Shown piece by piece: positions 1,886 to 20,019 of a DNA stretch of 20,019 nt. Under the pieces are notes generated by a model, which was not told where the DNA came from, searched no databases, and saw only the letters and a list, made by a program, of their open reading frames with translations. Positions within the stretch are counted from its first letter, which is position 1, and each line of letters begins with the position of its first letter. The position numbers and the translations under genes were made by a program. The stretch is from Actinomycetota bacterium (GTDB taxonomy: Bacteria; Actinomycetota; Acidimicrobiia; Acidimicrobiales; UBA8592), in assembly GCA_002715425.1 (NCBI GenBank), contig PAYW01000006.1:16340-36358 (forward strand), written 5' to 3'.

Positions 1886-3661
1886 TTATTCAGCGAAGAA
1901 CGTTGATTGGAAGAAGGTACGTCCATTTATCTGACAACGCATCTTCACATCTTCTGCTGTTGTGACTCCGCAGAGATTTTCAACCCCATCTGCCATTGAG
2001 ATTGTCCACAACGTATGGTTGTAGAACACATAGAGGTATTCTTCGTTGATCATCTCTGACAGTTCTTGATACAGAGGTGCTTTTTCTTCAACAGTACTAG
2101 CCGCGTCAGCTTGCAATATTATTGCATCCCTGTCTTCATCACAGTACCGAGGCCAGTTCAGCGATATTCCTCCGATAGCCCTACAGAGTAGCCAAACCCT
2201 ATCGTCTCCAGGGTTAACTGCTCCGAACTGTCGCCAGCCAATGGAGTTGTATAGTCCGAAAGCTGCTTCTTGGATGTGCTGATCTTGAGGAAGTACCTGA
2301 ACTTCTACGTTAAAGAAATCCGACCAGCCCTCTACGAGGAGGTCAGCTACACGTTCACCAACAACAGAAGGACCTGAGTATTGATATTCGATGTTGATCT
2401 TGCCACCCGAACAGCTATCTGGGCTGTCTTGACAATACGCATCAACGAGTGGCCCTGCAAGATCCGGTTTATCTGAAAGCTGCACAATATCCTCATTGAA
2501 GTATGGACTTTCCGGAGTAAACATTTGGTCAGCTTTTCTGGTGACGTCAAGGTTGATAAGCGTGTTGTACCTATCTCTTGGAGTTGCATGCGTGATAGCT
2601 TGTCGTGCCCGAATGTCGTCGAATGGTGCTTTTTGTGAGTTGAGCATAAGGAATGATTCGTCTCCAGTGTCGTCAAAGACCTGAGTAATCGAATCCTCTT
2701 CTGCCAATCGTGCTATTGACTCAACATCGCTTGTGGCCAGAGCATCAAGCTCTCCCTCAAGGAGAAGTTGCGTTCGAACAGCTCCGTCTGTCACAGGGTA
2801 GAACTCAATAGCGTCAAGGTACACGTCTCCACCCCAGTAGTTTTCGTTTCTAACGAACTTTGTTACTGAATCTTCAGTCCGAGACTCAAAGACAAATGGC
2901 CCTGTGCCGACGGGTTGTTGATCAAGCGTCGGATCTTCGAGAGCTGCAGCCAGCCAAGTAGGGGAAGCTGTTGCTCCTAATTGCCCAGTCAAGGCGCTTG
3001 GGAATCCACAGTTTGCATCAGACAAATTAAAGATTACTGTAAGGTCGTCAACGATAGTCAACGCCTCTTCAGCACTTGCGTAATAAGGCCGCACTGCCAA
3101 GCCAACGAGTGGATCCGAGAACTGTGTCAGGAAGTTCACACTTACCGCTTCGGCGTTGAGAGGGGTTCCATCATGGAAGTTAACTCCCTCACGAAGAGTC
3201 ATAGTCCAAGCCTTGCAATCTTCGCTAGAAGCGAAGGATTCAGCGAGGTGAGGTACCCAGTTACCATCTTGATCGAATGCTGCAAGAGTATCAAACACGG
3301 CGTTCATCATTGTCAGGCCAGGCGCTGAAAGCGCAGATGCTGTTGGGTTGATTCCGTCAACCTCAGCTTCTAGGCCCCAACGAAGAGTTCCTCCGAAAAC
3401 AGGTTCAAGAACGCTTTCTTCCTGCGTCTCGACTATAGGAGTTTCCTCTTCCTCAGCTTCCTCTTCCTCAGCTTCTTCAGCTTCCTCTTCTTCAGCTTCC
3501 TCTTCTTCAGCTGGCGCTTCTTCAGTGGTCTCTGAAGCACTACTTTCGGAAGAACTCGACGCCGACGATCCACTGTCGTCATCTCCACCGCCGCAACCAA
3601 TGGCGAAAAGAGAGAATGCGAGCATTAATGCGAGCAATTTCGCGAATTTACTTTTAGACAT
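1886..3661 (-). CDS. Solute-binding lipoprotein of a peptide-type ABC importer (SBP_bac_5 family)
   Basis: The product has 591 residues from the ATG at 3661. A TTG two codons upstream (3667) also fits, but the GGGG ribosome-binding element (AAAGGGGAT) is about 10 nt from the ATG and only 4 nt from the TTG, so I prefer the ATG. A lipoprotein signal peptide ends in FAIGC with Cys23 as the lipidated residue. Then come a Gly/Asp/Ser stretch and a Glu/Ala-rich spacer (about residues 45-75) that probably holds the binding domain away from the membrane. The mature domain shows family landmarks: GGTLRWGLEAEVDGINPTAS, WTMTLREGVNFHDGTPLNAE and PVGTGPFVFES. It captures the substrate outside the cell and delivers it to the permeases encoded downstream. 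The binding pocket specificity is not predictable here. The divergent neighbour is the ABC-AceK gene, 171 bp away. Confidence 0.95.
   Translation of the reverse strand: MSKSKFAKLLALMLAFSLFAIGCGGGDDDSGSSASSSSESSASETTEEAPAEEEEAEEEEAEEAEEEEAEEEETPIVETQEESVLEPVFGGTLRWGLEAEVDGINPTASALSAPGLTMMNAVFDTLAAFDQDGNWVPHLAESFASSEDCKAWTMTLREGVNFHDGTPLNAEAVSVNFLTQFSDPLVGLAVRPYYASAEEALTIVDDLTVIFNLSDANCGFPSALTGQLGATASPTWLAAALEDPTLDQQPVGTGPFVFESRTEDSVTKFVRNENYWGGDVYLDAIEFYPVTDGAVRTQLLLEGELDALATSDVESIARLAEEDSITQVFDDTGDESFLMLNSQKAPFDDIRARQAITHATPRDRYNTLINLDVTRKADQMFTPESPYFNEDIVQLSDKPDLAGPLVDAYCQDSPDSCSGGKINIEYQYSGPSVVGERVADLLVEGWSDFFNVEVQVLPQDQHIQEAAFGLYNSIGWRQFGAVNPGDDRVWLLCRAIGGISLNWPRYCDEDRDAIILQADAASTVEEKAPLYQELSEMINEEYLYVFYNHTLWTISMADGVENLCGVTTAEDVKMRCQINGRTFFQSTFFAE
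3444..3513 (-). repeat. Short 15-nt tandem repeat coding the Glu/Ala spacer of the lipoprotein
   Basis: The plus strand carries four near-identical 15-nt units of the form CCTCTTC(C/T)TCAGCTT plus one shortened unit of 9 nt. On the coding strand each unit reads GAA/GAG codons with one GCT, giving the EEEAE pattern. Shortening by a multiple of three keeps the frame, as expected of a slippage-prone linker. Confidence 0.75.
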
Positions 3662-3832
3662 ATGCAAATATCCCCTTTATGGACCCAGACCTCCTGGGCA
3701 TGTCCACTAGTCTTGCCTGAGGAATAGGCCGGTGCAAGTTGTGGTACTTAATCTAAGGATCCTTTTTCGTGATTTTTAGACTTTTTTTACTGCAAAGCAA
3801 GATAGTAATGAAATTTGAGGCAATATCTAAAT

Positions 3833-6331
3833 ATGAGTGATCCTTTACTTTCCTTGGAAAACGTTGCTTATACCTATTCAGATGGGCATGGGTTGAGCGG
3901 GATTAACATTGAAATAGAACAAGGTGATCGCCTTGCCATAGTAGGGGGCAACGGTAGCGGGAAAAGCACTCTCTCTAGAATTATTACAGGCCAGTTAGAA
4001 CCCACTGATGGGGTTATAGGTGGGACCTGTCGGATTCCTGAGGACGTAGGGACTGCCGCAGATCTTCGACTTTTCAATAAGGACTCAACAGTTACATCTG
4101 TTCTTCAGGCTCTTGGTGGAGGTGAGAGCCCTGAGCTAACTCTTGCAGCGGTTGCCCTAGAACCAGACGTACTACAGCGCCGAATTGGAAAACTTAGCGC
4201 TGGGGAACGATTCCGAATTGCGCTAGCTGTACAACTAGCGAATCAACCCCCGTTGCTTGTCCTAGATGCCCCATCAGCGCTACTGGATGTTCGGTCGGCT
4301 GAAACACTTGTTGATGCTTTAAATAACCGGCACGAGGCTTTGATCGTATTTTCAGCTGATATCACTGTTGCTATTGAAACCTGTCAAAGGGTTATTATTT
4401 TAGACCAAGGGAAGATAGTCGCAGCTGGTTCCACAATCGATCTCCTAACAGATAGTGAGCTTTTGAAACAACACGCTGTAGATATCCCATCGGCACTTTC
4501 GCCAAGTTGGTTGCGGCGTCGAGCTAGGAGCCCCGAAGCAAAACAGCCGCAAGTGCCTATTAGTGAGTTGTTACAGAGGTGGGATTCAACGGGTGCTGTC
4601 TCTGAGGAGGAAGTTGCTGCTGAATCTGCGAAGCGTGTGGAGGAAGCATTTGAAACATATCGGAGTGAATTTAAAAGCATAACGAGAAGAGCTTCAGATA
4701 ATTTTGTGAATAGAAGGTACTCTTCCCAGCAGATTGATGCTCAAATTCGCTTGTTACTGCATCGGCAAAGCGTAAACGTTTGCGTCGAAACAATTAAGGA
4801 CCTTCTTAGCGGCCTTGATGAAACGAAGCGAAGAGAGGTTTGGGTAGACGCACGCCACCTCTTCGCTCAATCTATCGCTTGGCGGTCAGATTCTGAATTG
4901 GCAGAAACACACTTTAATTCAGTTACTCGGAGAGTGTTTCCTATGGTTGGGTTTGATGATGACCTTGAGTTTCGATGGTTTGGGGGGGTTGCCCTTCCTA
5001 TAGTTGATCCTGGGCAAGGGGAAGTACTGACTTTCCGACTCCGGACGATGACGAGTGAACTTGTTCGGAAGGTTTTAGCGTCATACAGCTTGGGTACGGG
5101 GTGGGTAGATCTAGATCGAGACGCAGGAGAAATTGCCTCGGCAATTGATCAACATCTCTCGGAGACTTGGGAATCAACCATGCCGGTTGAGGTTGATATG
5201 CTTAAGCCGGTTTTTTATCGGAATCGAGGTGCATACTTGGTTGGTCGGATACGCCATTTGACTAGAGTCTCTCCCTTTATTATTCCGCTTCGGTCTCTTG
5301 AATCAGGGATTGTGGCAGACGCTGCACTCCTAACCGAAAATGCAACGAGCCGGATATTCGGCTTTACGCGTTCTTATTTCCATGTGGATACTGACGAGCC
5401 GGGAGCGGTCGTGGCGTTCGTAAAGTCGCTCATTCCTTTGAAGCCTGTTGCAGAGTTGTATACAGCTATTGGTCACAGCGCCCATGGAAAGACCAGTCTG
5501 TTTCGGGCTATCTATCGACACCTCTCAAACTCTGCTGACCGCTTCCAGCCAGCTAGAGGGGTGAGGGGTATGGTTATGATTGTTTTTACACTTCCTTCCT
5601 TCGGTGTTGTATTCAAAGTTATAAAAGACACGTTTCCGCCTTCAAAGAAGATCACGAGAACGCAAGTATTAGAGAAGTATCAGATGGTGTTTAGCCATGA
5701 TCGTGTTGGGCGGATGGTAGATGCTCAACTTTTTGAAGATCTAGCTTTCCCTCGAGATCGGTTTGGAGACGAATTGCTCGAAGAACTTGCGAATAAGGCA
5801 TCGCGCTCAGTAACTATCACAGAGACTGATGTTGTCTTCCATCATATTTACACTGAACGTAAGGTCTACCCGCTAGATCTCTATATCGATGAAATGCCGC
5901 GAGACCTTGTCACCGATGCCGTTTTAGATTACGGCAATGCAATAAAGGAGTTAGGTGCAGCAAATATTTTCCCAGGAGATCTATTCACCAAAAATTTCGG
6001 CGTAACCCGTCACGGGAGCGTCGTCTTCTATGACTATGACGAACTTACCTTTTTAAATGAAGTAAATTTTCGCTCCATACCCGAAGCACGAACCTATGAA
6101 GACGAACTCTCATCAGAGCCATGGTTCACTGTTGGTGCGGATGATGTCTTTCCAGAGGAATTTAAAAAATTCTTCCGATTCCCAGAGAAGATCAGCGAAA
6201 AATTCGAACATTCCCACGGAGATCTCTGCGACCCAGAGATGTGGATTCAACTCCAGGAACTCAATCAATCACCGGACTCTGGAGAGTTCTTTCCTTACTC
6301 AGAACAAGTACGCTTTAAACTTCCTGAATGA
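3833..6331 (+). CDS. aceK: ABC-type ATPase domain fused to isocitrate dehydrogenase kinase/phosphatase (AceK)
   Basis: The single frame encodes 832 residues from the ATG at 3833. A TTG at 3815 would add six residues, but the GAGG at 3817-3820 overlaps it and lies upstream of the ATG. Residues about 1-215 form an ABC ATPase resembling EcfA/CbiO types: Walker A GGNGSGKST (38-46), signature LSAGE (121-125), Walker B LLVLD (Asp145). The catalytic Glu position is Ala146, the switch His position is Ala175, and Asn82 sits where the Q-loop Gln is expected. A linker (about 216-260) leads to a full AceK of about 570 residues. K595, D630, D716, K720, N721 and D734 match E. coli K336, D371, D457, K461, N462 and D475 (recalled from memory) with nearly identical spacing. 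AceK phosphorylates and dephosphorylates isocitrate dehydrogenase to divide carbon between TCA cycle and glyoxylate bypass. No frame break is visible. The ABC half's role is inference: probably an adenine-nucleotide sensor. No icd, aceA or aceB is in the window. Confidence 0.93.
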   Translation: MSDPLLSLENVAYTYSDGHGLSGINIEIEQGDRLAIVGGNGSGKSTLSRIITGQLEPTDGVIGGTCRIPEDVGTAADLRLFNKDSTVTSVLQALGGGESPELTLAAVALEPDVLQRRIGKLSAGERFRIALAVQLANQPPLLVLDAPSALLDVRSAETLVDALNNRHEALIVFSADITVAIETCQRVIILDQGKIVAAGSTIDLLTDSELLKQHAVDIPSALSPSWLRRRARSPEAKQPQVPISELLQRWDSTGAVSEEEVAAESAKRVEEAFETYRSEFKSITRRASDNFVNRRYSSQQIDAQIRLLLHRQSVNVCVETIKDLLSGLDETKRREVWVDARHLFAQSIAWRSDSELAETHFNSVTRRVFPMVGFDDDLEFRWFGGVALPIVDPGQGEVLTFRLRTMTSELVRKVLASYSLGTGWVDLDRDAGEIASAIDQHLSETWESTMPVEVDMLKPVFYRNRGAYLVGRIRHLTRVSPFIIPLRSLESGIVADAALLTENATSRIFGFTRSYFHVDTDEPGAVVAFVKSLIPLKPVAELYTAIGHSAHGKTSLFRAIYRHLSNSADRFQPARGVRGMVMIVFTLPSFGVVFKVIKDTFPPSKKITRTQVLEKYQMVFSHDRVGRMVDAQLFEDLAFPRDRFGDELLEELANKASRSVTITETDVVFHHIYTERKVYPLDLYIDEMPRDLVTDAVLDYGNAIKELGAANIFPGDLFTKNFGVTRHGSVVFYDYDELTFLNEVNFRSIPEARTYEDELSSEPWFTVGADDVFPEEFKKFFRFPEKISEKFEHSHGDLCDPEMWIQLQELNQSPDSGEFFPYSEQVRFKLPE

Positions 6332-6456: not shown

Positions 6457-7143
6457 TTGTCGTCGCAGAACAGAATTCTCATAGCTGAAGATGATGAAGC
6501 AGTCCGTAGCGCTATAAGACGTGCTCTTGAACATGAAGGTTATGAAGTTACGGTCGCTGAAGACGGTGCTCGCGCACTAGAAATCAGCAAGAATATGCAA
6601 CCCGACCTGTACCTTCTCGATGTCATGATGCCAAAGGTCGATGGTTTGTCTGTATGTAGAACTCTTCGACATAGAGGAGATGCGACACCGATCATTGTTG
6701 TAACAGCCCGCCATCTTATATCCGATCGTGTAGCTGGTTTGGATGCCGGAGCAGACGATTACCTCGTTAAACCGTTCGCCCTAGATGAGCTGCTGGCTCG
6801 AGTTCGCGCTCTTCTTCGGAGGGGGACAATTGGGGAGTCTGAAGGGATTCTCGAAGCTGCAGGAATTCGACTTGACCAAGGCGCTAGAGAGGTCAGCCGT
6901 AATGGAGTATCGATTCAACTGACAAAGACTGAATTCGACCTTCTTGAGCTACTAATGCACAACGTTGGGATTGTTTTAACCAGAGAGACTATCTACGACC
7001 TCATATGGGATTACCGGTTTGAGACAAATTCAAAGTCTCTCGATGTCTATATTGGATACTTACGAAGAAAGATCACCGTTGATGATATGACTGATCCAAT
7101 CCACACGGTCCGGGGTGTTGGATATTGTCTGAGAGAAACATGA
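6457..7143 (+). CDS. Two-component response regulator, OmpR/PhoB family (MprA-like)
   Basis: This 228-residue regulator has an N-terminal receiver domain (about 6-120) and a C-terminal winged-helix DNA-binding domain (about 130-226). All receiver landmarks are present: acidic pair D12/D13, phospho-acceptor D55 in LLDVMMP, T83 and K105 in VKPF. The output domain carries LTKTEFDLLELL and the terminal TVRGVGYCL typical of the family. The start is TTG at 6457, supported by AGAGGTG at 6444-6450 with a 6-nt spacer; an in-frame TAG just upstream excludes earlier starts. Its stop overlaps the start of the histidine kinase gene, so the two are co-translated partners. A tandem direct repeat at 6359-6380 suggests autoregulation. 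It resembles mycobacterial MprA/PrrA types, but target genes cannot be inferred. Confidence 0.96.
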   Translation: MSSQNRILIAEDDEAVRSAIRRALEHEGYEVTVAEDGARALEISKNMQPDLYLLDVMMPKVDGLSVCRTLRHRGDATPIIVVTARHLISDRVAGLDAGADDYLVKPFALDELLARVRALLRRGTIGESEGILEAAGIRLDQGAREVSRNGVSIQLTKTEFDLLELLMHNVGIVLTRETIYDLIWDYRFETNSKSLDVYIGYLRRKITVDDMTDPIHTVRGVGYCLRET

Positions 7144-8486
7144 GTTTGCGGACGAGACTTACAGTGGGGGTAGCCGTCCTTGTTTCTGTAGTCGTTATTT
7201 TAACAGGTGGATTCATGTTCAGAACTGCTAAATCCGAACTACGCGGCGAGATTGATTCATTTTTAGAGCAGCGAGCCGTGGCAGTCAACATGGCAGTTGT
7301 CGACAGAAAAGTGGACAAAAATACTTTGCGGTCGTTTTGGTTTGATAATTACCTTTCTCAGCCTGATGCGGCAACTCAACTTCTTGACGGGAGAGGAGAA
7401 CTCATCTTCAGTTGGCCAATTGAGATTCCTATTGATCTTATAGACCGAGAGATTGCAACTAGAGGAGGCGGAAAGGCTCAGCCCCGTCAACGTTTTACCG
7501 ATAGAAAAATCAACGGTACGAATTACAGAGTCTTATCAAAAGAAGTTCGGCCGGAAGGCCTATTGCTGGTAGGTCGTAACCTTTCCGAAGTAGACGCAGC
7601 ATTAAGCGGAATAAAAAATAGAATTCTCATCTTCGGAGGAAGCGGAATTCTGTTATCTTCACTTATCGCATGGCTCTTTGCATCAAGGTTCACGCGCCCA
7701 GTCGTGCGCTTAACAAAAGCAGCTGAGAAAGTGGCAAAAACTCAGGATCTTGTTGCCTATATTGATGTAGGTGAAGGAGATAGTGAGATTAATCGTCTTG
7801 CGGAAAGCTTCAATATCATGTTGGAGGCTCTAGCTACTTCAAAAGAGCAACAGCGGAGACTTGTTGAGGATGCAAGCCACGAACTTCGAACACCTTTAAC
7901 CAGTCTGCGAACGAATATAGAGGTTCTTCTCCGTGCGCCAACTATGGAGCCAGATCAACAGGCAGAAATCCTGGCCGACGCCAAAAGTGAAATCGAGGAA
8001 CTCGGAATTCTTGTGGTGGAGCTAGTTGAACTCGCGACAGCAACATCAAGACATGAAGAACCCTTTGCTTCGGTTGACCTGGGAGACGTTATTGAAGGAG
8101 TCGTTCATAGATTTCGAAGAAGAACTGAACGAGATATTTCAATTACTATTGAAGGAGACAACATAAGAGAAATTCGTACTACTGGAATAGACCGAGCAGT
8201 TGGGAATCTGATAGAAAACGCCATCAAATTTAATCCGGAAGGACAAGGCATAGAGGTTCGAGTTGAAGATGGTCGTGTTGCTATCCGAGACTATGGGCCA
8301 GGAGTGTCTAAAGATGACAAGTCTAGAGTTTTCGATAGGTTCTTTCGGGCAACGAATACTCGCTCGATGTCCGGTTCCGGATTGGGTCTAAGTATTGTCG
8401 CTGAAATTATTCGCGGACATGGCGGGGAAGTATTCGTTGAAGATCCTCTTGATGGCCCCGGCACAGTTATTGGATTTAGGCTTTAG
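7140..8486 (+). CDS. Sensor histidine kinase, HAMP/HisKA/HATPase type (MprB-like)
   Basis: The ATG at 7140 overlaps the TGA of the response regulator (ATGA), the classic coupling arrangement, giving 448 residues. A TTG at 7125 would extend it by five residues and is less likely. The first membrane segment is about residues 8-27. An extracytoplasmic sensor region of about 130 residues follows, then the second membrane segment (about 162-183), HAMP (about 184-236) and the HisKA dimerisation domain with H247 in DASHELRTPLTSLR. The HATPase domain has an N-box at N356-N360 (NLIENAIKF), G1 at D384 (DYGPG) and G2 at G412 (GSGLGLS). It should sense an envelope signal, autophosphorylate H247 and pass phosphate to D55 of its partner. 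The signal is unknown. Its 3' end meets the next gene tail-to-tail with a 3-bp gap. Confidence 0.96.
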   Translation: MSLRTRLTVGVAVLVSVVVILTGGFMFRTAKSELRGEIDSFLEQRAVAVNMAVVDRKVDKNTLRSFWFDNYLSQPDAATQLLDGRGELIFSWPIEIPIDLIDREIATRGGGKAQPRQRFTDRKINGTNYRVLSKEVRPEGLLLVGRNLSEVDAALSGIKNRILIFGGSGILLSSLIAWLFASRFTRPVVRLTKAAEKVAKTQDLVAYIDVGEGDSEINRLAESFNIMLEALATSKEQQRRLVEDASHELRTPLTSLRTNIEVLLRAPTMEPDQQAEILADAKSEIEELGILVVELVELATATSRHEEPFASVDLGDVIEGVVHRFRRRTERDISITIEGDNIREIRTTGIDRAVGNLIENAIKFNPEGQGIEVRVEDGRVAIRDYGPGVSKDDKSRVFDRFFRATNTRSMSGSGLGLSIVAEIIRGHGGEVFVEDPLDGPGTVIGFRL

Positions 8487-13326: not shown

Positions 13327-16300
13327 ATGTCTGACCTTGATGAGTACCAGATTAATGACAGGTACACACGTGACGATGGCCGCGTCTTTTTGACTGGAGT
13401 GCAAGCACTTGCTCGGATACCGCTTCAGCAGTTACGAGCAGATAAAAACCAAGGAAGAAATACCGCTGCATTTCTTTCGGGGTATCCGGGATCACCTTTG
13501 GCTGGGTTGAACTTTGAAATAGACAAAGCACGATCGCTCGCACCTGATCTTAACATTGTCCACCGACCAGTACTCAATGAGGAACATGGGGCTACTGCTG
13601 TTATGGGTAGTCAGTTAGCGTCAGAACAACCAGATTGCGTATACGACGGGATTGTAGGGCTTTGGTATGGGAAAGCTCCGGGCCTAGATAGAGCAGGAGA
13701 TGCTCTGCGTCACGCTGTATTCACAGGCACTTCGAGACACGGAGGTGCGGTGGCAATTGTGGGCGATGATCCGGCGGCTAAAAGCTCAACCCTTCCCTCA
13801 AGTTCAGATGCAGCGTTGGTAGATCTTCTCATGCCCATCCTTTACCCGGGTGATGTTAAAGAGGTACTAACCCTTGGAATGCATGCGGTTGCATTAAGCA
13901 GGATTACCGGAGCGTGGACAGCCTTAAAAGTAGTTGCAGCAGTTGCGGATGGAAGCGGTACTGTTGACTTGTCTTCATCGGTTGTTCGGCCAAAGGTTCC
14001 TGATTTAACGATTGATGGAGTACCTTATTTACATCAGCCAGATGCTAATTTACTGACGCCAAACAATTTAGACTTGGAGCGGGACCTACGTACTTCTAGA
14101 GCGGAACTAGTTCGAAGGTATGTTGTTGCGAATGAGCTCAACCCCACAACCGTAAACCCACCTGATGCTTGGATAGGAATAATCTCCAGTGGTTTTACTT
14201 ATCACGAGGTAATTCATGCTCTCAATGCACTCGGCCTAAGAAGCCATCATGAAATAGCTTCTGCTGGAATTCGCATACTGCATCTTCAGCTTCCGATACC
14301 TTTCGACCCGCAAAATATTAGAAACTTCGCAAAAGGTTTAGATGAGATAATCGTAGTTGAAGAAAAAAACCCAACAGCAGAATGGCTAGTTAAAGACGCT
14401 CTCTATGGCAGCGCGCATCAACCGAGAGTACTAGGGAAAAATCACCCTGACGGAAGAACCTTAATGCCAAGCCATGGAATTCTTGACGCAAATGCGATGC
14501 TCGAAGGGCTTCACGAACGCTTATCTCAAAAGATCTCTGGCAGGCTTCAACCGCCGCAGCAACCAGAGCAAATAAAGAATCTACTTCCACTTAAGGTTCA
14601 AAGAAGCCCGTACTTCTGCTCTGGGTGTCCGCACAATACAAGTACTAAAGTTCCGGACGATTCCTTAATTGGTGCTGGGATAGGTTGTCATACAATGGTG
14701 CTGCTAATGGATGACGATCGAGTTGGCGATATTTCTGGTGTAACCGCAATGGGAAATGAAGGAATGCAATGGATCGGTATGGAACCATTCCTAGATCGGA
14801 AACATTTCATACAAAACATTGGGGATGGGACCTATTTTCATTCAGGACAATTAACTATTCCCTCAGCTGTTTCTGTGGGGAGCAATATCACATTTAAGCT
14901 TCTCTACAACGGGACGATTGCTATGACAGGTGGCCAAGACCCTAAAGGGGTCTTAAGCGTTCCAGATGTCACTAAGGTGATGATCGCACAAGGTGTTGCC
15001 AAGATCATCGTAACTACTGAAGAGCCAGCGCTATATAAAAAAGTATCATTCCCAGATCGGGTGGAAGTCTGGGGCAGAGATCGTATTGTCGAAGCACAAG
15101 AGCACTTATCAGGATTTGATGGTGTAACTGTTCTTATTCATGATCAGTCTTGCGCCGCACAATTGCGTCGCCATCGCAAACGTGGACTCTTAGAACAGCC
15201 TGACTTCCGTGTCCTCATAAATCATCGGATTTGCGAAGCCTGTGGGGATTGTGGGGAAGTCTCTAACTGCTTATCGGTGCAAACGAAGGAGACAGTATTA
15301 GGGCCCAAAACTTTTATAGAGCAAGGATCATGTAACCTTGATGCTTCATGTCTAGAAGGGGATTGCCCTAGTTTCATTACTGTTACAACGAAACCAGAGG
15401 AAAGCTATCAATCTGACAGCATGCAATCTAATATTTTTGCAGATCTCCCTGTTCCAGAGAAGATCTTTTTCCCTAATGCTCTCGATCTTCGTATGGCTGG
15501 CATAGGGGGCACCGGAGTAGTAACTACAGCACAAATTTTAGCGACCGCAGCAATGCTTGATGGATTTGAAGTTAGGGGACTAGATCAGACTGGCCTTTCA
15601 CAAAAAGCAGGGCCGGTTGTTAGTGATATTCGTTTGTCTAAAGATTTTCCTAGGTCATCTAATCTCTTAACAGATGCAAGCGCTGATGTTATTTTGGCCT
15701 TTGACCTTTTAGTTGGCGCAAGCGAATCTTCCCTTAAGGTGGCGAAACCTGATCACACTATTCTTGTTGCGTCTGATTCGCCCACGCCCACAGGAGCAAT
15801 GGTCGGGAAACCAGATACTCGATTACCCGATGTAACAGATTTGGCTAGGCGTGCCTCCTCTTTCACAAATGAAGAAGAGAACGTTTACGTCAGCGCGGCG
15901 AGCATTTGCGAAGAACTTCTAGGTGATTCCAATTCAGCTAATATCTTTCTTCTTGGGGTGGCTGTCCAAAAGGGGGTCATTCCTGTTTCTCCCGAGTCGG
16001 TTGAGGAAGCGATTACTTTGAACGGGGTTTCAGTCCCAAAAAACCTCAGTGCGTTTAAATGGGGGAGGGCATGGATGCATGACCCCTCAAATGTTGGTAA
16101 ACACTTAATCCCGTCTGCTCCTCAAGTCCCTGTGATGAAATTGAAAGAACTGCCAGAGAAACTCGAAGCTCTAATCGAGTCCTTGAATCTTTCGCCATCT
16201 ACTAGAGAGTTGCTTTATTTTTTCTCCCGAGATCTTGTTGGATTCCAAAATAGTAAATGTGCTGAAGAGTTCTTAATTACTGTCAAAAAAGCTGTAGAGG

Positions 16301-16836
16301 CGGCTCGTTGTCTTGAAGATAACGATTCTGTTACTGAATTAGTTGAAGCTGTTGCGCGGGGAGTTCATAAACTGACTGCATATAAAGATGAATATGAGGT
16401 CGCTCGCTTATTTCTAGATGCAGAAACGAAATCTGAAATGATTGGTCTGCAAGGTTCAACTGGAAGAGCCAGATGGCATCTTCACCCTCCGTTTCTTAGG
16501 GCGCTCGGAATGAAAAACAAGCTCAAAATCCCATTCACTATTGCCGAACCCCTTATGTCGGTTCTCGCTAGTGCCAAAGTTCTTCGGGGTACGCCCTTTG
16601 ACCTATTCGGATATGCGAAAGTAAGAAGAATCGAGAGAGAATTACGCGATCAATATGTATCTTCCTTGCAAAACGCTTTCGAGCTTCTAGATCAAGGCAA
16701 CTACGAATTGATTACTGAACTGGCAGCTCTTGCTTCGGAAGTAAGGGGTTTCGAAGGTATTAAACTCCGCTCGGCAGAGAAATTTTTCACTCGTCTTGAA
16801 GAATTAAATCACGAGATCTCATCAAATCGCAATTAG
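13327..16836 (+). CDS. Indolepyruvate ferredoxin oxidoreductase, fused alpha/beta type
   Basis: The ATG at 13327 follows AAGGGA with 4 nt spacing. The product has 1169 residues, the usual size of the fused single-chain enzyme. The N-terminal pyrimidine-type domain carries SGYPGSPLAG (51-60) and NEEHGATAVMGSQ. The TPP-binding domain has CSGCPHNTS, GNEGMQWIG and IGDGTYFHSG (G499-D500-G501). Cysteines C636, C639, C642 and C648 and then C669, C675 and C680 form a region likely to bind Fe-S clusters. The 2-oxoacid oxidoreductase gamma domain begins around residue 720 (GIGGTGVVTT, then GLDQTGLSQKAGPV). A helical C-terminal extension (about 960-1169) ends the chain. The family decarboxylates aryl pyruvates or related 2-oxoacids to acyl-CoA, reducing ferredoxin, in amino-acid catabolism; other 2-oxoacids are possible. 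The stop overlaps the stop of the convergent next gene. Confidence 0.93.
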   Translation: MSDLDEYQINDRYTRDDGRVFLTGVQALARIPLQQLRADKNQGRNTAAFLSGYPGSPLAGLNFEIDKARSLAPDLNIVHRPVLNEEHGATAVMGSQLASEQPDCVYDGIVGLWYGKAPGLDRAGDALRHAVFTGTSRHGGAVAIVGDDPAAKSSTLPSSSDAALVDLLMPILYPGDVKEVLTLGMHAVALSRITGAWTALKVVAAVADGSGTVDLSSSVVRPKVPDLTIDGVPYLHQPDANLLTPNNLDLERDLRTSRAELVRRYVVANELNPTTVNPPDAWIGIISSGFTYHEVIHALNALGLRSHHEIASAGIRILHLQLPIPFDPQNIRNFAKGLDEIIVVEEKNPTAEWLVKDALYGSAHQPRVLGKNHPDGRTLMPSHGILDANAMLEGLHERLSQKISGRLQPPQQPEQIKNLLPLKVQRSPYFCSGCPHNTSTKVPDDSLIGAGIGCHTMVLLMDDDRVGDISGVTAMGNEGMQWIGMEPFLDRKHFIQNIGDGTYFHSGQLTIPSAVSVGSNITFKLLYNGTIAMTGGQDPKGVLSVPDVTKVMIAQGVAKIIVTTEEPALYKKVSFPDRVEVWGRDRIVEAQEHLSGFDGVTVLIHDQSCAAQLRRHRKRGLLEQPDFRVLINHRICEACGDCGEVSNCLSVQTKETVLGPKTFIEQGSCNLDASCLEGDCPSFITVTTKPEESYQSDSMQSNIFADLPVPEKIFFPNALDLRMAGIGGTGVVTTAQILATAAMLDGFEVRGLDQTGLSQKAGPVVSDIRLSKDFPRSSNLLTDASADVILAFDLLVGASESSLKVAKPDHTILVASDSPTPTGAMVGKPDTRLPDVTDLARRASSFTNEEENVYVSAASICEELLGDSNSANIFLLGVAVQKGVIPVSPESVEEAITLNGVSVPKNLSAFKWGRAWMHDPSNVGKHLIPSAPQVPVMKLKELPEKLEALIESLNLSPSTRELLYFFSRDLVGFQNSKCAEEFLITVKKAVEAARCLEDNDSVTELVEAVARGVHKLTAYKDEYEVARLFLDAETKSEMIGLQGSTGRARWHLHPPFLRALGMKNKLKIPFTIAEPLMSVLASAKVLRGTPFDLFGYAKVRRIERELRDQYVSSLQNAFELLDQGNYELITELAALASEVRGFEGIKLRSAEKFFTRLEELNHEISSNRN

Positions 16837-17404: not shown

Positions 17405-18571
17405 TCACTTATCTAGTGACGAAGCAGCGAACAGTAATCCACTTAATGCGTGCTGTTGTCCATCGACTCGAGATGTACCACCGGTGAACCACCCGCCATC
17501 AAATTCAATGACTCCAGTTCCTGTCGTTTGTTTCACACGCATTCTTCCAGCGCCACATAATAACCTATCTTTCAGTGGATTTTTGAGGTCTTCTAAGCGT
17601 GATTCATTTTCTGCTAACTGATGCAGCATCCCAATTGCCTCAAGCCAAGTTCCTTGTCCAGCAGCTATGGGTTCGGGGGAGTGAACAAGCCCATCCAAAC
17701 CTCCGTTACGCTGTGATTCCCATCTCACTGCTATTCCAAACTGAGCTGCAAGCTCCTTCGCGTAGTTAATATGGATTTCGTTTAAACCCCATTCGGACAT
17801 TTCGTTAAGGCTGTAGGCAGCCCATTGATCAGCCCATGGTCTTGGCCATACGTTTTCGTCTTCGTCTCGCTGAGTTGCCATATAATCCAAAGTTAGAAAT
17901 GCTGCTTGATCCCAGCCGTTCTCTGGGAACAAATTATGGAGGCTAGCTAAAGCCCAAAGTGCTTCACCTGTGGCGAATAACGAGGTTATATCGGGGACTG
18001 GGGAGTTTGTTTCCTGATCCCAGAAATACAACATGCTCCCGTCCTCTCTTTGCATCTCAAGGATAAAGGCTCCGACCTGCTCCAAAGCGTTATCGTATTT
18101 CTTGTCATTAGTAGCAGCTCTTCTTTTAATTAAAGAAATAGCAAGTAATGAAGCGGTCCCTAGTTTCGCATTTGCAGATCCTTCTGCGATCGCAAGAATT
18201 TCTTCAGTACCCACTGAGCGATCTAGAAGATATTTAAGCCCTGCATCTGCCGCTTCTAGGTACTGATAGTCACCTTCTTCCACTATCTGGTACAAGGCCA
18301 TTGTGGTCCCAGCATGACGGACAAGATTGTACTCATCGGAAATAATTGGGTTTCCTGTTGCGCTAATTTTTACTTCGTAGAGATAACGTCCATCGTTTGA
18401 TTGGTTTTGAGAAATCCAATTTGCTGCTTCTTGAGCGGATAAATATAGCTCTTCTTTCGTAGAAGAAGGACAGATTTCTGCTGCAAGTAGCGTCGCCCGA
18501 AGAGACCCGATAGTGAGAAGCCAGATGACGCCCCAAGCGATAAGACGATATGACTTTCTCTTCCTCTTCAT
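17405..18571 (-). CDS. Exported or membrane-anchored alpha/alpha-toroid-like protein, function unknown
   Basis: From the ATG at 18571 the product has 388 residues. The frame stays open 34 codons further, to a possible start at 18673, but that part overlaps the upstream gene and encodes an Arg/His-rich stretch unlike a real N-terminus. A basic start (KRKRK), a hydrophobic helix (about 10-30) and ATLLAAE suggest a signal peptide or anchor. The remainder has repeated helix pairs with Gly-Thr/Gly and DGS/DGR turns (ISQNQSNDGRYLY, RHAGTTMALY, GTASLLAISL, MQREDGSMLYFWD, FATGEALWALASL). This is the pattern of alpha/alpha-barrel enzymes such as glycosidases, uronyl epimerases and terpene cyclases. 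No catalytic motif assigns it to one of these. The ATG lies 2 bp after the FG-GAP gene's stop, so translation is likely coupled. Confidence 0.75.
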   Translation of the reverse strand: MKRKRKSYRLIAWGVIWLLTIGSLRATLLAAEICPSSTKEELYLSAQEAANWISQNQSNDGRYLYEVKISATGNPIISDEYNLVRHAGTTMALYQIVEEGDYQYLEAADAGLKYLLDRSVGTEEILAIAEGSANAKLGTASLLAISLIKRRAATNDKKYDNALEQVGAFILEMQREDGSMLYFWDQETNSPVPDITSLFATGEALWALASLHNLFPENGWDQAAFLTLDYMATQRDEDENVWPRPWADQWAAYSLNEMSEWGLNEIHINYAKELAAQFGIAVRWESQRNGGLDGLVHSPEPIAAGQGTWLEAIGMLHQLAENESRLEDLKNPLKDRLLCGAGRMRVKQTTGTGVIEFDGGWFTGGTSRVDGQQHALSGLLFAASSLDK

Positions 18572-18573
18572 CT

Positions 18574-20019
18574 TTAGAGGTCGAGGTAGTAGAAGGCTCC
18601 GGCGTTTGCGAGTCCTGAAACGGTGCGTCCGGGTGAGCCTATGATGAGGTTTCCGTTGAGGACGCTGAACCATGCGCCGAATTCTGCGTTAGCTTCTGAA
18701 TCTCCGGTGAATATGCTCTGGTTCGCGTAGAAGAGCTGATCTTCGGCGGTTGTTATTTGTCCTCCGACGCTTTTGAAGATAGCGACAGCTCCCGCGTCTG
18801 GGCGAGTAGCGATAGATTCACCGGGAACACCAACAATGAGATCAACGTTGCTATCGCCGGTCACGTCCGCCATTTCAAGGTGAGCGCCGAACCGGTCACC
18901 GGTCTCGACCTTATTTTGAACCCCAGCCAGGTTCTGATACAGGGTTTGGACGCTCGCTGGTGTCTGCGACCAATCGCCGGGGTTATAGCGGATCTGGACC
19001 TGCCCAGCTTCAGTGTGGCTTCCGAGTTTCTCGCCGGGGACACCCACGACAAGATCCCCGATGCCGTCCCCATCGATATCGCTCACAGCGATCGATGAAC
19101 CGAACCGGTCGTTAGTCTCTGACCGTCCAGGCCATCCGGGAGAGTTCTGATAGAACCATTGGCTTCCCGTTCCCGACGCTCCCGACGCTGAACCGTAAAT
19201 AACATGGACCGCACCAGCATTCGATTGGGCTCGCGCCCCCCAGCCGACACCTTCACCGGGGACACCCACGATCACGTCATCGTAGCCATCGCCGTTAATA
19301 TCTGCCGCTTCGACAGCTTCTCCGAACGCGTCATCAACTTCAGCCTTGCTTTTCACCCCGCGGGCATCCTGATGCAATAAATCACTATCCACTCCGGTCA
19401 ATCCCGAAGCGGACCCGTAAATGACATGGACGGCCCCAGCCCGGTCACGTTTCGATATGCCCTCACCGGGAACACCCACAACCACGTCATCGTAGCCGTC
19501 GCCGTTAATATCGCCGGAAGCTAGAGAAGCTCCAAAAAGGTCCCCTGATTCCGAATTGGTTCCCACACCGGGACTGTACTGATGCATGTTCACGGGGCTA
19601 GTCAACCCTGAAGCTGAACCGTATGCGATAGTGATAATGCCAGCGTCAATCAGCTGGTTTGAACCGCCGAGATCCTCATAGGGGACACCGACCACCATGT
19701 CGTCATACCCGTCATTGTTGAAATCGCCTGTCGTGAGCGCTGAACCAAACCGATCTCCCGATTCTGAAGTATCCGGCCACCCAGACGTATTCTGATAGAA
19801 ACCATCATTATTACTCCACCCGCCGGAACCATAAATCACATGCACTAAACCAGCGTCACCGATAGACCCAACGCTTTCCTCAGGAGCGCCAACAAGAAGA
19901 TCCATCCTTCCATCACCATCAAAATCACCAGTATCAGTCACCGAACCGAACCTGTCACCACTCTCAGCACCAATCCAACCCGCAGACAAAAATCCAGGCG
20001 TATCCTGATCAATCTGATT
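18574..20019 (-). CDS. FG-GAP/integrin-alpha-like repeat protein (5' end cut by window edge)
   Basis: The frame is open from the stop at 18574 to the right edge. A TTG at 19989 could be called a start, but the ten codons before it continue the repeat (QDTPGF), so the gene extends outside the window. At least seven repeats of about 60 residues are visible. Each has the core [E]SGDRFG, then D-x-[DN]-x-DG-xx-D and [LV]VGVPGE, the cation-binding FG-GAP blade motif of integrin-type beta-propellers. The last repeat (EFGAWFSV, then IIGSPGR) has lost the calcium loop, and the chain ends seven residues after AGAFYY, fitting propeller closure. A seven-bladed, secreted or surface protein is likely; binding partner unknown. 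Hand-counted lines inside it have about 55-62% GC versus about 48% in lines of the oxidoreductase, partly because of Gly/Asp-rich codons. Confidence 0.9.
   Translation of the reverse strand, partial: NQIDQDTPGFLSAGWIGAESGDRFGSVTDTGDFDGDGRMDLLVGAPEESVGSIGDAGLVHVIYGSGGWSNNDGFYQNTSGWPDTSESGDRFGSALTTGDFNNDGYDDMVVGVPYEDLGGSNQLIDAGIITIAYGSASGLTSPVNMHQYSPGVGTNSESGDLFGASLASGDINGDGYDDVVVGVPGEGISKRDRAGAVHVIYGSASGLTGVDSDLLHQDARGVKSKAEVDDAFGEAVEAADINGDGYDDVIVGVPGEGVGWGARAQSNAGAVHVIYGSASGASGTGSQWFYQNSPGWPGRSETNDRFGSSIAVSDIDGDGIGDLVVGVPGEKLGSHTEAGQVQIRYNPGDWSQTPASVQTLYQNLAGVQNKVETGDRFGAHLEMADVTGDSNVDLIVGVPGESIATRPDAGAVAIFKSVGGQITTAEDQLFYANQSIFTGDSEANAEFGAWFSVLNGNLIIGSPGRTVSGLANAGAFYYLDL

Follow-up and report, generated by a model that had tools for sequence, protein, structure and literature searches.

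Why should an ATP-binding cassette (ABC) ATPase stand in front of isocitrate dehydrogenase kinase/phosphatase (AceK) in one and the same protein, and what might it do there? The question is raised by an open reading frame (ORF) in a stretch of 20,019 nucleotides from an Actinomycetota bacterium (contig PAYW01000006.1, positions 16,340 to 36,358), the whole of which is called the window below. The host of this ABC-AceK single-chain protein is an actinobacterium. The fusion is confirmed as a real single-chain protein, and the new point, overlooked by the sequence-only reading that first described the locus, concerns the ABC half: its residues for nucleotide binding are kept, and those for hydrolysis and transporter coupling are lost.

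Layout of the fusion protein

3833..6331, + strand: gene of the ABC-AceK fusion, 832 aa, with its stop codon (ORF, Pfam and protein search)
3817..3820, + strand: GAGG, possible ribosome-binding site, 12 nt 5' of ATG 3833 (sequence read)
3833..4540, + strand: ABC (CbiO/EcfA-like) half, residues 1-236 (PF00005; fold matches)
4541..4618, + strand: variable linker, residues 237-262 (lowest conservation; predicted local confidence, pLDDT, <50 at 234-237)
4628..5533, + strand: AceK regulatory domain, residues 266-567 (PF20423)
5537..6301, + strand: AceK kinase/phosphatase domain, residues 569-823 (PF06315)

The frame, 832 codons long, opens with ATG 3833 and reaches its stop codon (6329-6331) without a break; this start is preferred because the mechanical ORF start, TTG 3815, overlaps the GAGG. 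Three Pfam domains are found in the protein: ABC_tran (PF00005) at residues 21-148 with 78.4 bits, AceK_regulatory (PF20423) at residues 266-567 with 267.6 bits, and AceK_kinase (PF06315) at residues 569-823 with 345.9 bits. The two AceK matches cover positions 1-301 of 302 and 1-255 of 256 of their profiles, and for NCBIfam NF002804 (bifunctional isocitrate dehydrogenase kinase/phosphatase) the protein reaches 633.8 bits, where the cut-off is 488. The earlier description of an uninterrupted single-frame fusion with a full-length AceK is therefore borne out, and the architecture is kept in relatives, as shown below.

State of the ABC half

3944..3970, + strand: Walker A GGNGSGKST, residues 38-46 (Lys in 79/79 fusions)
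4061..4063, + strand: Q-loop position, residue 77, Asp in the window (alignment column)
4193..4207, + strand: ABC signature LSAGE, residues 121-125 (Ser in 79/79, Gly at 124 in 76/79)
4253..4273, + strand: Walker B LLVLDAP, residues 141-147 (catalytic position 146 at 4268-4270)
4355..4357, + strand: H-loop position, residue 175, Ala in the window (alignment column)
4499..4528, + strand: junction motif SPSWLRRRAR, residues 223-232 (motif scan)

Residues of the ABC half were compared between 79 fusions and 84 stand-alone ABC relatives (200-330 aa, among hits P0134-P0241). The closer ABC-only hits P0122-P0132 were excluded from the controls because they resemble pieces of fusions (nine tails were read; P0123, P0128 and P0130 have the junction motif). 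All 79 fusions retain Lys in Walker A, Asp in Walker B, Ser in the signature and Asp in the D-loop. At catalytic position 146, on the other hand, the fusions have Ala (76, including the window), Asp (two) or Glu (one), whereas Glu is present in 84/84 stand-alone relatives. The H-loop position is Ala in 75, Ser in three and Thr in one of the fusions and never His, which is found in 81/84 relatives. In the Q-loop column, chosen as the most Gln-rich column of the 84 relatives (Gln in 73), the fusions have Asp (74), Glu (four) or Thr (one) and Gln in 0/79, and the stretch before and around the Q-loop is shorter in the fusions than in the stand-alone relatives. Stand-alone relatives that share these losses, and from which the ABC half might have come, were not found among the 84 controls, all of which have the catalytic Glu.

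This conserved loss of the catalytic, H-loop and Q-loop residues speaks for a domain that binds ATP and does not turn it over. Selection on the ABC half looks to have favoured nucleotide binding, probably within a sandwich, and neither hydrolysis nor the driving of a transporter. The claim that both halves of the protein are complete thus holds for AceK, which is full length by its Pfam profiles, but not for the ABC half, and the view of the latter as an intact ATPase is not supported.

In its fold (by the order of Foldseek matches) and in its C-terminal tail, the ABC half resembles CbiO/EcfA, while PhnK and 2ihy tie with CbiO in a second comparison. With 113.7 bits against a cut-off of 330 for TIGR04521, the energy-coupling factor (ECF) ATPase family, the curated threshold is not reached; the EcfA/CbiO-like identity proposed earlier nevertheless agrees with the tail and the fold matches. 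An origin from ABC-F proteins, raised by the short Q-loop region and by a score of 103.6 bits for NF000355 on the ABC half, was considered and set aside, since the CbiO tail and the Foldseek order favour CbiO/EcfA, which is preferred over ABC-F as the source but not settled. No EcfT/CbiQ partner was found in the 11 fusion-clade genomes, of unknown completeness, and the same search matches 10/14 control genomes, nine of them over the cut-off. A transporter function of the ABC half was rejected on account of the lost Q-loop, catalytic and H-loop residues, and because no EcfT was found.

Over nine pairs, in some of which synonymous change is saturated, the ratio of nonsynonymous to synonymous substitution (dN/dS) of the ABC half is 0.035-0.116; for the AceK domains it is 0.023-0.107 where computable. 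By this measure, both halves are under purifying selection. Conservation reaches 0.80 in the ABC tail (residues 206-238) and is lowest, 0.41, over residues 239-262. The tail contains the motif SP[ST]WLRR in 79/79 fusions, which occurs in 0/41 AceK-only hits (P0081-P0121) and 0/109 ABC-only hits (P0133-P0241). A structure model of the monomer has a mean pLDDT of 84.4 and a predicted template modelling score of 0.68, with residues 234-237 below a pLDDT of 50. Rows for CbiO in VIA-align cover model residues 2-364, a weak hint that helices of the regulatory domain may lie near the ABC tail.

Distribution and origin

The sequence-only reading had proposed a search for the same domain architecture in relatives. 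In about 5.8 billion proteins, the ABC, regulatory and kinase domains were found together in 79 clusters (P0002-P0080, 56-100% identity) among the best 120 of 5422 matches, where P0002 is the window's own sequence; coordinate strings apart, the sources name these proteins isocitrate dehydrogenase kinase/phosphatase. Residues 1-400 of P0077, used as a query for more distant fusions, gave the same 79 and no extra ABC-AceK protein among the best 120 of 407 matches. In a genome collection, nine loci were found, in three of which (L001, L003 and L004) the fusion is whole and continuous across the junction. It is cut within AceK by the contig end in L002 and L005, and the remaining four loci are other ABC proteins. 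L003 and L004 are metagenome-assembled genomes of Acidimicrobiaceae, and L001 is isolate AG-410-G14, a name which we take to be that of a single-cell genome.

AceK is present in 33/298 sampled genomes of the same order. The ABC fusion is found in eight of these (G001, G004, G081, G117, G149, G200, G260 and G297), the gene of G005 is cut by a contig end, and in G175, where the frame lies at a contig start, a cytochrome P450 fragment takes the place of the ABC half. No ABC half is seen in the other 23, as judged by BLAST in 22 cases and from the length of the open frame alone in G265; long open frames with AceK are present in G101 and G211, but they do not resemble the ABC half. A quick tree of AceK halves (branch support by the Shimodaira-Hasegawa-like approximate likelihood ratio test, SH-aLRT, only; midpoint root) was built from 27 of the 79 fusions, the G175 row and 51 AceK-only rows, consisting of 38 hits (P0084-P0121; P0081-P0083 were excluded as partial) and 13 of 22 AceK-only loci. 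All 27 fusions fall on one side of one branch with SH-aLRT 98, and G175 is among them. The simplest reading of the sampled tree is that the ABC-AceK fusion arose once.

The G175 frame (L067, G175:C55, 3-2336) joins a fusion-clade AceK to the P450 fragment near the LTDxE(L/M)L tail; the fragment matches P450 structures in the PDB down to 1e-20 and has no Pfam match. Since the tree places its AceK within the fusion clade, this join is probably an assembly chimera. P0130 is an ABC-only frame of 258 aa with the fusion-type Ala residues and the junction motif, which ends soon after the motif. It sits on a contig of 162,264 bases, so that a short contig does not explain its end; a fusion broken by a frame break and a real split gene are both possible. 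P0094 (816 aa) combines the GntR and UTRA domains of a regulator with a complete AceK in a single frame, and is either a second, unrelated N-terminal AceK fusion or a joined neighbour.

The L067 join, at the same junction and at a contig start, is the one apparent case of an assembly or prediction artefact fusing two neighbouring genes, an explanation to which we give next to no weight for the ABC-AceK protein. It is contradicted by 79 clusters from several sources, by three separate genome records, by an unbroken frame in which purifying selection acts on both halves, and by a junction motif present in every fusion. These independent copies rule out an artefact, and the earlier statement that this is no chance join of adjacent genes is upheld by them.

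The AceK half, its substrate and its pathway

5615-5617, + strand: K336 equivalent, residue 595 (alignment to E. coli AceK)
5978..6043, + strand: AceK catalytic core, residues 716-737 (equivalents of E. coli D457, K461, N462, D475, D477 and E478)

All seven catalytic and metal-binding positions listed here are conserved in 79/79 fusions, their E. coli numbering and roles following passages of PMC3747045 and PMC6591243. The substrate of AceK, a dimeric NADP-dependent isocitrate dehydrogenase (IDH) of the E. coli type, scores over the family cut-off in 31/35 AceK genomes; matches under the cut-off are unspecific, as 14/14 control genomes match and seven pass it. The loop TTP[IV]GGG[FI]RSLN, which holds the equivalent of Ser113, is present in 20/20 IDH loci read, six of them from fusion-clade genomes (G005, G081, G117, G149, G175 and G297), with 13 further matching genomes unread.

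Isocitrate lyase (<1e-40) is found in 30/33 AceK genomes of the order sample versus 31/265 others (Fisher p ~6e-21, kinship ignored), and in 7/11 fusion-clade genomes, where the hit in G297 is partial. In each of G002, G003, G004 and G117, neither isocitrate lyase nor malate synthase was detected.

Proposed mechanism and alternatives

We give roughly even chances to the reading that this AceK bears an N-terminal CbiO-like ABC domain which has turned into a non-hydrolysing nucleotide-sensing module and biases the switch between kinase and phosphatase; the AceK half, as part of this reading, would be a working IDH kinase/phosphatase. On the side of sequence, it draws on the intact active site of AceK, the retained ATP-binding and signature set, the conserved loss of hydrolysis and coupling residues, purifying selection on both halves, and a sampled tree with one origin. 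As the sequence-only reading had suggested, the role that the ABC half may have is best read as an energy-charge input or a dimerisation switch. A more specific form of it, which is plausible but tentative, is an ATP clamp: a captured transporter ATPase may have lost hydrolysis and kept its grip on ATP, so that its sandwich dimer, as an equilibrium ATP/ADP sensor, would set IDH phosphorylation. Two ABC halves would close on ATP as a head-to-tail sandwich that is unable to fire, and that would open only when ATP falls or is replaced by ADP, giving an equilibrium readout of ATP versus ADP. The conserved SPSWLRRRAR tail could relay the state of the dimer to the helical regulatory domain, which would bias AceK between its two activities. 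The choice between the tricarboxylic acid cycle and the glyoxylate shunt would then gain a second energy input besides the AMP site, which is known in E. coli AceK.

Several observations weigh against this scheme. In the subclade P0077-P0079, residue 41 of Walker A is Arg for Gly and the signature is changed, so that their ATP binding may be weaker and decaying, and P0077 alone of the three keeps the catalytic Glu. The ABC half has a dN/dS like that of AceK or somewhat higher, and its mean conservation is lower (0.68-0.76 over residues 1-205 vs 0.79-0.85 over 263-832). The structure model supports both folds, but its relative placement of the two halves is not reliable. Among the 35 AceK genomes, no IDH profile match was found in G001 and G002 and only partial ones in G101 and G200, of which G001, G002 and G200 count here. 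Isocitrate lyase was not found in 4/11 fusion-clade genomes (G002, G003, G004 and G117), and malate synthase was found in 6/11 and missing from 5/11, the completeness of these genomes being unreported; those without glyoxylate-shunt matches include the closest relatives of the window. Incomplete assemblies may be the cause of the missing shunt enzymes.

If the ABC half were a structural or dimerisation scaffold only, with ATP held permanently, used as a folding cofactor or not bound at all, no energy charge would be sensed. This explanation, which we regard as unlikely although it deserves some weight, would agree with the lost hydrolysis residues and with the further decay of Walker A in P0077-P0079, and cellular ATP is usually well above the affinity of such ABC-type sites. 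It leaves aside that every fusion retains, alongside Walker A, the Ser of the signature and the Asp of the D-loop, two motifs that matter where two ABC units share ATP, and that purifying selection acts on the ABC half.

The ABC half could also pair with another nucleotide-binding domain (NBD), e.g. DppD/DppF of the divergent importer, and so tether AceK to a transporter. The fusion is divergent from a Dpp/Opp operon wherever upstream DNA is available; however, both flanks are equally conserved, so that this synteny is not specific, the operon in L003 has two dedicated oligo_HPY NBD genes and does not require the fused ABC as its motor, and the Q-loop Gln is absent from all 79 fusions. We consider such a tether improbable. 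An active ATPase, either of an ECF or other transporter or with hydrolysis coupled to AceK switching, would fit the CbiO/EcfA-like fold and tail and the intact nucleotide-binding motifs, but it is hard to reconcile with Ala at the catalytic position in 76/79 and the lack of the H-loop His and the Q-loop Gln in all fusions, with the absence of EcfT/CbiQ from the 11 fusion-clade genomes searched, and with a score of only 113.7 of 330 bits for the ECF ATPase family; it is very improbable.

Comparison with known systems

The proposed non-hydrolysing module has a counterpart in heterodimeric ABC exporters, in which a degenerate site without the catalytic Glu still binds nucleotide; one of two sites is active in these exporters, whereas both would be dead in a homodimer of the fusion. 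PhnK is an active ATPase. PhnK and PhnL on the C-P lyase (PDB 7z15, 7z16; the title of 7z16 names an E171Q change) are separate subunits, and their partner is C-P lyase, no protein kinase. Compared with E. coli AceK (PDB 3eps, 3lcb, 6k5l), whose chain of 578 aa aligns with the window protein only from residue 267, the fusion is extended at its N-terminus by an ABC domain of 236 residues and a linker. It differs from CbiO/EcfA of ECF transporters (PDB 5x40, 5x3x) in having neither the catalytic Glu nor the His and Gln of the H- and Q-loops, and its helical region is shortened; no EcfT partner was found, and it scores below the NCBIfam cut-off.

An ABC-AceK protein is not described among the matches listed in the open-licence literature searched on AceK, in agreement with the earlier impression of novelty, although a description outside them is possible. 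Its conservation in 79 clusters, its one origin on the sampled tree and the selection on both halves mark it as biology and not an accident. The fusion would exemplify an ABC domain retained for binding alone, and an ATP clamp, if true, would put the ABC fold to a new use in regulation and give AceK a second energy input. A natural AceK with an extra module also offers a handle, as removal of the module or a block of its ATP site would show which of the two activities moves.

Genomic neighbourhood

1886..3667, - strand: solute-binding protein of a Dpp/Opp-type importer, divergent neighbour (PF00496; synteny)
6457-7143, + strand: response regulator, downstream (Pfam; conserved neighbour)
7125-8486, + strand: histidine kinase, downstream (Pfam; conserved neighbour)

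Upstream, the Dpp/Opp importer operon is divergent from the fusion in 7/7 genomes with upstream DNA (L003, L062-L066 and L070). In L003 it has two ATPase genes of its own with oligo_HPY domains; among the Dpp ATPase frames read, the H-loop His is present in 6/6 and a DEPT Walker B in 3/6 by the pattern used. Close to its N-terminus, the solute-binding protein of the window carries a long, acidic repeat of Glu and Ala.

Downstream, genes for a response regulator, a histidine kinase and a nucleotidyltransferase follow in 10/11 fusion-clade genomes with downstream DNA (L001-L005 and L062-L066, with L068 and L069 as second copies). The exception, L067, is without the two-component pair and retains the genes beyond it. 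The pair (6457-8486) is perhaps co-transcribed with the fusion. Neighbours of the fusion type occur in 0/11 AceK-only context loci (L071-L081).

Farther downstream, 13327-16836 (+) encodes a protein of 1169 aa with TPP_enzyme_C, POR and DUF6537 domains, of the indolepyruvate oxidoreductase type, which is syntenic in several of the loci that reach that far. At 17405-18673 and 18574-19989 (-), a gene for an FG-GAP repeat protein and an ORF with no Pfam match overlap by 100 bases.
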